The notes under the pieces were generated by a model, which was not told where the DNA came from, ran no database searches, and saw only the letters and a list, made by a program, of their open reading frames with translations. The position numbers were made by a program, and so were the translations under genes. A stretch of 44,608 nt of DNA from a virus. Location of the stretch: the IMG/VR virus record IMGVR_UViG_3300030522_000001, positions 1 to 44,608 of that record. The stretch is one strand, 5' to 3'. Positions 25,183-37,213 of the stretch are shown here, one piece after another (within the stretch, counting starts at the first letter, position 1; each line of letters begins with the position of its first letter).

Positions 25183-25461
25183 TCAGGCACGTTTACGGCT
25201 CGTAGTAGACAACACCGGATCTCGCCCCCCACGTCGCAGGTATTCCCAATCGACATCTGGCCGAAGGGACTCGCAAGGCACCTTGCCTTTGGACTCGCGA
25301 TCCAGTCCGATGGCAATTGATTCGCCGAGCTTGAATGACTCGTCACGGGACGCGACAGACAGTGCCTTGCGCAAATACCCGATGGTCGTACCGGACCGCT
25401 CGGCATACTTGGCTTGCTCACAGGGTGAGAGGGTCTTCAAGAACTCGCGAAGCTTCTCCAT
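25183..25461 (-). CDS. cro: Cro/YdaS-type repressor, 92 aa
   Basis: The N-terminus MEKLREFLKTLSPCEQAKYA, then ERSGTTIGYLRKALSVAS, is the helix-turn-helix of YdaS/Cro-like early repressors; the second half (ESLRPDVDWEYLRR) is a short dimer tail. The ATG at 25461 lies 7 bases after the promoter -10 box, so the message starts at or one base before it and should be leaderless. An ATG at 25470 lies within the -10 and is excluded. It is the first gene of the replication operon, divergent from the CI-like gene. Confidence 0.78.
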   Translation of the reverse strand: MEKLREFLKTLSPCEQAKYAERSGTTIGYLRKALSVASRDESFKLGESIAIGLDRESKGKVPCESLRPDVDWEYLRRGGRDPVLSTTSRKRA

Positions 25462-25468
25462 GACACCC

Positions 25469-25496
25469 ATATTACCCGTGGGTCATAATACGTCAA
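25469..25496 (-). promoter_or_regulatory. Cro-operon early promoter (PR-like)
   Basis: Minus strand: TTGACG (25496-25491), 16-base spacer, TAATAT (25474-25469). The spacer contains one operator. It has the same design as the promoter at 25979-26006, and both place the ATG 7 bases after the -10. Confidence 0.8.
25472..25485. promoter_or_regulatory. Operator O1 in the cro promoter spacer
   Basis: TTACCCGTGGGTCA, a near-palindrome of the class TTACCY-NN-RGGTAA, centred between -35 and -10, where bound repressor would block polymerase. Its centre is 24 bp from the weaker site at 25496-25509. Confidence 0.7.
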
Positions 25497-25524
25497 TACC
25501 CGGAGGCCATTTACCTGGAGGTAT
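25496..25524. promoter_or_regulatory. Operators O2 (weak) and O3
   Basis: O2, ATACCCGGAGGCCA (25496-25509), is a partial match beside the cro -35. O3, TTACCTGGAGGTAT (25511-25524), is a good match and overlaps the -35 of the CI promoter, the position of lambda OR3. Three sites between divergent cI and cro genes repeat the lambda arrangement. Confidence 0.65.
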
Positions 25525-25537
25525 TGGGTTTTATGCT
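25510..25537 (+). promoter_or_regulatory. Maintenance promoter of the CI-like gene (PRM-like)
   Basis: TTTACC, 16-base spacer, TATGCT; each box matches consensus at 4 of 6 bases. The ATG follows the -10 by 6 bases, so this transcript too would be leaderless, as lambda PRM is. Confidence 0.55.
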
Positions 25538-25543
25538 GGTGAC

Positions 25544-25900
25544 ATGGATGTCCAACAGACACGCAAGCGCAGGCTGCAGCAGCTCGTCGAGGAGTACGGG
25601 ACTCAAACCGCGCTCGCCGAGAAGGTCGGCGTCGAGCAGAACTACATCAGCCGAGCGCTCAAAGGCGCCAAGCGCATCGGTGAAGACTTCGCCGCGCGCC
25701 TCGAGGCGGCGACCGACAAGCCTGCTGGATGGCTGAGTCGGATGGAGAAAACCGGCACGGATTGGCCATTCGAATTCGATCGCCGGCACTGGGATACGCT
25801 GCCCCCTGAAGAGAGGGCGGCGCTTGAGCGATCGTTCCGCCAGATGGTGCTCGGAGCCGCTGCCGACGTTTCTGAACGACGAGGCAAGAAACGCGCATAA
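25544..25900 (+). CDS. cI: CI-type repressor, short form without peptidase domain, 118 aa
   Basis: An XRE-type helix-turn-helix at residues 8-50: RRLQQLVEEYGTQTALAEKV, GVEQNYISRALKGAKRIGED. The remaining 65 residues (WLSRMEKTGTDWPFEFDRRH; EERAALERSFRQMVLGAAAD) probably serve for dimer contact. There is no S24/LexA-like Ser-Lys peptidase domain, so RecA-driven self-cleavage is not expected and induction must work otherwise. It lies between the two early promoters and is read away from cro. A perfect terminator follows. It is the likely ligand of the TTACCY operators. Confidence 0.8.
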   Translation: MDVQQTRKRRLQQLVEEYGTQTALAEKVGVEQNYISRALKGAKRIGEDFAARLEAATDKPAGWLSRMEKTGTDWPFEFDRRHWDTLPPEERAALERSFRQMVLGAAADVSERRGKKRA

Positions 25901-25928
25901 GTGGTTAATTCCAAAACCACGTATCAAT

Positions 25929-25955
25929 AACCCGGCTTTGGCCGGGTTTTGTTTT
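25929..25955 (+). terminator. Terminator of the CI-like gene
   Basis: AACCCGGC, TTTG loop, GCCGGGTT, then TTGTTTT. It isolates repressor transcription from the early promoter directly downstream. Confidence 0.88.
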
Positions 25956-25965
25956 GCCAAAATTA

Positions 25966-25979
25966 TTACCTTGGGGTAT
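25966..25979. promoter_or_regulatory. Operator O4, upstream of the PL-like promoter
   Basis: TTACCTTGGGGTAT next to the -35; its centre is 24 bp from O5. The same 24-bp offset separates O1 and O2 at the cro promoter. Confidence 0.72.
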
Positions 25980-26006
25980 TGACATCGCGTTACCCCCGGG
26001 TAATAT
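25979..26006 (+). promoter_or_regulatory. Early promoter of the recombination operon (PL-like) with operator O5
   Basis: TTGACA, 16-base spacer, TAATAT. The spacer holds the perfect palindrome TTACCCCCGGGTAA (25990-26003). ATG 26014 stands 7 bases after the -10, so the first gene should be translated from a leaderless message. Confidence 0.85.
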
Positions 26007-26013
26007 GGCGCCC

Positions 26014-26208
26014 ATGCCGAACAACCCAGCCACCGCCGCCCTCTCCGCCAAAGAGCGTGCGCTTCACGACGAAGCCGCCCTGCTCGCCTGGCGCCAGTGC
26101 CTCAGTGAGAACGGCCTGCAGGGCGCTATGGGATGCGCCCACCTGGCTTGGGATGCGGCCGACGAATTCATAGAGCAGCGCCGCCAGCGCACCGGGAGAC
26201 AGCCATGA
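26014..26208 (+). CDS. First early protein of the plus operon, 64 aa
   Basis: A helical, Ala/Glu-rich protein (SAKERALHDEAALLAWRQCL; AHLAWDAADEFIEQRRQRTG). In lambdoid phages this position holds N or an early lethal or host-control gene, but it lacks the N-terminal Arg-rich peptide of N. Leaderless start at 26014 (see promoter). An ATGA overlap joins it to the next gene. The function is unknown; expression would be immediate on infection and repressed in the lysogen. Confidence 0.7.
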   Translation: MPNNPATAALSAKERALHDEAALLAWRQCLSENGLQGAMGCAHLAWDAADEFIEQRRQRTGRQP

Positions 26209-37178: not shown

Positions 37179-37184
37179 GCGGGG

Positions 37185-37213
37185 ATTATAGCAATCCCCT
37201 GCAAGCCTGACAT
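37185..37213 (-). promoter_or_regulatory. Extended -10 promoter of the HNH gene
   Basis: Minus strand: ATGTCA (37213-37208), 17 bases, then TGC-TATAAT (37190-37185), an extended -10. A perfect 7-bp inverted repeat GGGGATT/AATCCCC (37181-37199) covers the -10 and could bind a regulator or form a hairpin. Confidence 0.65.

Follow-up and report, generated by a model that had tools for sequence, protein, structure and literature searches.

Predicted leaderless cro, repressor and left-operon messages in a temperate P22-like podovirus with a lambda-like immunity region

The immunity region of a temperate, P22-like podovirus (an IMG/VR virus record of 44.6 kb) probably is a compact, lambda-like operator-promoter cassette whose cro, repressor and first plus-operon (P0003) messages are leaderless, as judged from its sequence. 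The window is the whole record of 44,608 nt, in which the portal, terminase, head and DNA-ejection genes lie on the minus strand, and the Erf-like annealing protein, exonuclease and integrase genes on the plus strand. A search of the phage collection returned no DNA-level relatives.

The stretch from 25183 to 26208 contains a cro-like gene on the minus strand, a repressor gene on the plus strand, a hairpin, a second operator-promoter unit and a plus operon (Table 1). Its layout supports a lambda-like OR/OL design. The repressor and cro genes are divergent, with three related operators between them, one of which (OR2) is degenerate, and the OL pair at 25966/25990 precedes an early operon read in the direction of the repressor. 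Downstream of this pair, on the same strand, are the recombination genes (Erf, exonuclease) and the integrase gene. P0001, a small helix-turn-helix protein divergent from the repressor, belongs to the Cro family (phrog_35/YdaS-like), and its match to the YdaS_toxin profile is below the Pfam cut-off. Its M1 was set by the family alignment (HMM E 2e-32, start offset 0).

Table 1. Positions of the features of the immunity region and of the HNH gene in the window
Feature	Position	Strand	Remarks
cro-like gene P0001, 92 aa	25183..25461	-	phrog_35 transcriptional repressor, E 8e-9; start ATG 25461
PR-like promoter TTGACG-16-TAATAT	25469..25496	-	TTGACG 25496-25491, TAATAT 25474-25469
Operator OR1 TTACCCGTGGGTCA	25472..25485		in cro promoter spacer and first 3 bases of -10; same place in relatives
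Operator OR2 ATACCCGGAGGCCA, degenerate	25496..25509		centre 24 bp from OR1; sequence reading
Repressor promoter TTTACC-16-TATGCT	25510..25537	+	-35 25510-25515, -10 25532-25537
Operator OR3 TTACCTGGAGGTAT	25511..25524		15 bp from OR2 by centre; overlaps repressor promoter
Repressor gene P0002, 118 aa	25544..25900	+	HTH_3 above Pfam cut-off, YdaS below; phrog_5736 transcriptional regulator, E 5e-10
Intrinsic-terminator-like hairpin AACCCGGCTTTGGCCGGGTT, T-rich tail	25929..25948	+	between repressor and plus operon
Operator OL2 TTACCTTGGGGTAT	25966..25979		centre 24 bp upstream of OL1
PL-like promoter TTGACA-16-TAATAT	25979..26006	+	TTGACA 25979-25984, TAATAT 26001-26006; score 12.6
Operator OL1 TTACCCCCGGGTAA	25990..26003		in PL promoter spacer and first 3 bases of -10
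P0003, first plus-operon gene, 64 aa	26014..26208	+	leaderless geometry; one relative, in L041
HNH endonuclease-like gene, 147 aa	36735..37178	-	phrog_3106, E 1e-17

Operators are given as 14-mers, and spacings were taken from centre to centre. A preliminary description of this DNA had placed an operator TTACCY..RGGTAA within the spacer of both lytic promoters, with a second site 24 bp upstream. Since this strict motif matched only at 25990-26003 (against 0.01 chance matches expected), operators were located with the looser core TTACCNNNNGGT. The core occurs at just four places in the 44.6 kb (25472, 25511, 25966 and 25990), all of them in the immunity region; at 25990-26003 it matches on both strands, and the reversed control gave 0. 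The strict operator was thus borne out for the plus operon, while the cro site has one mismatch. Both promoter-proximal operators are placed in the spacers as described, but they extend 3 bases into the -10 element. The second site was present at both promoters, the one on the cro side being weak; an OR2-like site 24-25 bp upstream of OR1 was also seen in several relatives.

The distances from promoter to start codon agreed with the preliminary description. Reading of the sequence and promoter scans both placed the ATG 7 nt after TAATAT at cro (GGGTGTC) and at P0003 (GGCGCCC), and the repressor ATG sits 6 nt past TATGCT (GGTGAC), which is the best distance there and is shared by many relatives. 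At cro and P0003, a -10 element 6-8 nt before the AUG is combined with the lack of a good Shine-Dalgarno (SD) sequence, as in leaderless mRNAs. Anti-SD pairing was -3.9 kcal/mol at each of the two starts, a value within the range of the leaderless class described below and not zero. The layout therefore supports the prediction that the messages of cro, the repressor and the first plus gene begin at or next to the AUG, and the cro geometry is kept in relatives.

Each -10 box (TAATATG) includes a further ATG, at 25470 and 26005, that is in frame with the proposed start and precedes it by 9 nt, and gene finders could misplace the starts of cro and P0003 inside these boxes. The same codons could serve longer transcripts, which weighs against the leaderless reading: transcription would then begin further upstream or at multiple places, and leadered genes would begin at 25470/26005 or at 25461/26014. 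However, within 45 nt before the cro ATG there is no promoter comparable to the PR-like one (10.6 vs 5.7 for the second best), no good SD lies upstream, and the 6-8 nt spacing at cro is preserved in relatives. The terminator-like hairpin upstream of PL separates it from the repressor gene and was counted in favour of a PL message starting at the AUG. Upstream starts are thus very improbable.

The leaderless geometry of cro was examined in 53 relatives gathered from IMG/VR, the phage collection and 399 genomes of the Curvibacter order. Start codons were fixed by the family profile, and sigma-70 promoters were scored at every distance, with scores of at least 8 regarded as strong; sigma-70 spacing was assumed for the source phage. 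The best distance from -10 to start was bimodal, with 26 loci at 6-9 nt (11 at 6, 10 at 7, 4 at 8 and 1 at 9 nt), 25 at 18-40 nt and none at 10-17 nt; two loci gave 1 nt, where the choice of start or promoter is doubtful. A strong promoter was located 6-8 nt before the start in 23/53 cro genes but in only 5/420 control ORF starts of the same loci (Fisher p 6e-20, nominal because the rows are related), which argues that the geometry did not arise by chance. Anti-SD pairing was weaker in the short class, with a median of -2.9 vs -6.5 kcal/mol (nominal p 4e-5). All 26 short-class starts were ATG, a result partly built in by a start rule that favoured ATG. A pyrimidine preceded the ATG in 23 of these 26, compared with 64% of the leadered class (borderline, p 0.05), which would fit initiation at the A. 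One locus (L061) was excluded and the starts of L079, L083, L090, L097 and L101 are uncertain, but the result was unchanged.

The cro geometry was kept across the operator types TTACTG, TTACCG, TAGC and AACC. It was found in 18/31 betaproteobacterial loci (Burkholderiales genomes or Burkholderia-group phages) vs 1/14 gammaproteobacterial loci (p 0.003), a host link that is confounded with phylogeny. The cro genes of the mEp043, Mannheimia, Pseudomonas and SfV types have SD leaders, although several of them share the operators and their spacing. On the cro tree, which is weak (86 columns), the leaderless state was clustered, with 9 changes vs 13.6 in shuffles, and L003 and L033, whose cro genes are closest to that of the window, both had the leaderless geometry. 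A single origin of leaderless cro was considered and found unsupported: 9 changes are required on this tree, at least 2 of them by well-supported branches.

L041, an IMG/VR phage of 46.5 kb with another immunity type and operators TCAACCTRGGGTTGA, also has a cro-like gene 7 nt past a -10-like TTGACT (L041:1443-1676 and 2400-2470). This gene had no match to the cro family profile, and the leaderless cro geometry may extend beyond the cro family of the source phage.

Compared with lambda, the source phage has the same divergent repressor and cro genes, three OR sites, OL upstream of a second operon and a leaderless repressor message (by geometry). In lambda, the cro and N messages carry SD-containing leaders, whereas cro and the first left gene of the source phage have the geometry of genes without an SD leader, and no N-like first gene was identified. 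Lambda CI has a C-terminal autocleavage (S24) domain, which not all phage repressors possess. In the repressor of the source phage, of 118 aa, no such domain was found, as only helix-turn-helix families matched P0002 in Pfam and PHROG, and its induction therefore probably does not proceed via RecA-stimulated self-cleavage. The divergent ORFs of many relatives are longer, at 220-270 aa. A peptide-pattern search of IMG/VR found no relatives of the repressor.

Two phages of the set allow closer comparisons. The E. coli phage mEp043 (L034) resembles the source phage in its operator core TTACCNNNNGGTAA, its OR spacing of 25/15 and its OL pair, and its Cro is 42% identical to P0001; however, 32 nt separate the -10 from its cro, which has a strong SD (AAGGAG), and no ORF begins at its PL start. 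The Paraburkholderia phage IPK (L033) has a close cro relative arranged as TTGACT-16-TAATAT-6-ATG, with OR/OL operators of the same core, but its first PL gene lies 54 nt past the -10 and has an SD.

Leaderless lytic operons had been called unusual in the preliminary description, and for cro this did not stand, given the leaderless geometry in about half of the sampled cro relatives and RACE data from the Yersinia phage PY54. According to the accessible part of PMC4488713, RACE gave one leaderless species each for PY54 cI and cro. As in the source phage, the promoters of both divergent repressor genes lie directly at the start codons, so that the cro message begins at the AUG; PY54 Cro differs in binding one site only, OR3, and the same part of that paper reports no leaderless left operon. 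PY54 shows leaderless cro to be a real arrangement and one not limited to Betaproteobacteria. The paaR2/ydaS regulators of a cryptic prophage in E. coli O157:H7 are likewise divergent and phage-type, and the accessible part of PMC8630535 describes leaderless expression for the cI-like paaR2 only and not for the cro-like ydaS. Translation without an SD is established there for both lambda cI and paaR2. An enrichment of leaderless regulators has been reported for B. cenocepacia and for C. metallidurans (PMC4603805, PMC7563307). Leaderless cro thus appears to be a recurrent and partly known design, common in betaproteobacterial phages, and not an oddity of the source phage.

For the left-type operon, the claim of an unusual arrangement held. 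The comparison covered 25 loci with an identified OL pair, and in the source phage alone (1/25) did an ORF with an ATG start begin no more than 12 nt from the -10 of PL. At the other loci, callable first genes began about 26-170 nt past the -10, mostly with an SD, and a few loci had no callable first gene. One of these loci, L058, was classed as leadered: a long frame opens with TTG at 7 nt, but there is also an ATG behind an SD at 35 nt. In L080, the promoter called for PL was poor (score 2.1). The idea that PL is leaderless across the whole family was consequently rejected, and a leaderless left-type operon appears to be a rare element, seen once among these loci.

P0003 had no Pfam or PHROG match; N proteins diverge fast. 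Its one relative is a 62-aa ORF in L041, and no further relatives were found in IMG/VR, in phages or in the 399 genomes of the Curvibacter order, the last of these searches having had no positive control. It is conceivable that only cro is leaderless, that P0003 is poorly or not translated from 26014, and that the ORF at 26205, which has an SD (-7.4 vs -3.9 kcal/mol for P0003), is effectively the first gene of the operon; this would make the P0003 stretch a leader of about 190 nt. The single known relative fits such a leader, as do the other 24 OL loci (24/24), which lack an ATG-initiated ORF within 12 nt and whose callable first genes are leadered, mostly with an SD. The same two points, a single relative and no second leaderless PL among the 25 loci, weigh against the main reading. 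On the other hand, the L041 ORF shares the start Met and 64% of its residues with P0003, half of the base differences (33/66) fall at third codon positions, and GC3 is high in both. This conservation points to P0003 being a real gene, and its role as a mere leader is unlikely.

In L041, the P0003 relative stands behind the other operator type TCAACCTRGGGTTGA, about 25 nt from -10 to ATG. The same gene would therefore be leadered in L041 and leaderless, by its geometry, in the source phage, which suggests that an OL-PL cassette was joined directly onto the P0003 start codon.

The PL messages of L006, L058, L050, L033, L036 and L039 have a predicted 5' stem-loop at their start, and the source phage has no such leader; at its PL, no 5'-end hairpin beyond chance was detected (z 0.2). 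The stem UUCGCUCC/GGAGCGAA is common to L006 (z -6.1) and L058 (z -3.1) despite their different operators, and the 5' stem of L006 contains the SD of the first gene.

Outside the immunity region, the HNH gene was confirmed to follow its -10 closely, with TATAAT at 37190-37185 and 6 nt (CCCCGC) before the ATG. This -10 lies within a perfect 7-bp inverted repeat, GGGGATT-GCTAT-AATCCCC (37181-37199), which had no match elsewhere in IMG/VR.

The leaderless reading suggests the following mode of action. Repressor dimers would bind the three OR and two OL operators. Since the promoter-proximal operators lie inside the -35/-10 spacers, repressor at OR1 and OL1 would occlude the polymerase at both lytic promoters, and the overlap of OR3 with the repressor promoter would allow autoregulation or control by Cro. 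When repression fails, RNA polymerase would initiate on the first base of the AUG, 7-8 nt beyond the -10, and the cro (minus-strand) and P0003 (plus-strand) messages would then be translated without an SD leader, probably with modest output of Cro and P0003 per message. The repressor message would be leaderless as in lambda. The leaderless PL would be a local feature, probably derived from the joining of an OL-PL cassette to the P0003 start codon. On the simplest and most likely account, a fixed operator-promoter cassette would have been packed compactly against the gene, an arrangement that the host would tolerate.

Leaderless lytic messages might also serve as a regulatory device, as the preliminary description had proposed, in which 70S-type initiation ties Cro and the early left functions to ribosome state or growth phase. 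Leaderless mRNAs in E. coli are indeed translated by a different route (established in work cited in PMC8630535), and on the cro tree the leaderless state recurs and forms clusters. However, compactness or host-specific tolerance explains the pattern of beta- and gammaproteobacterial loci equally well, and the other phages of the set with a callable first gene have a leader at PL. We regard such a device as quite unlikely.

The leaderless lytic message was already known from cI and cro of PY54; what is unusual here is the putative leaderless left-type operon. Within one cro family the gene appears either leaderless or SD-led, two discrete states that share one operator layout and track the host group. 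An impression from a single phage thus becomes a testable pattern. Temperate phages of Betaproteobacteria may repeatedly have made the cro message, and here that of the left operon too, leaderless as a functional choice, with entry into lysis set by non-canonical translation that depends on ribosome state, but we hold this to be a rather improbable interpretation. Matched pairs, such as the IPK-type and mEp043-type phages, would allow the effect of a leaderless lytic regulator on the lysis-lysogeny decision to be asked.
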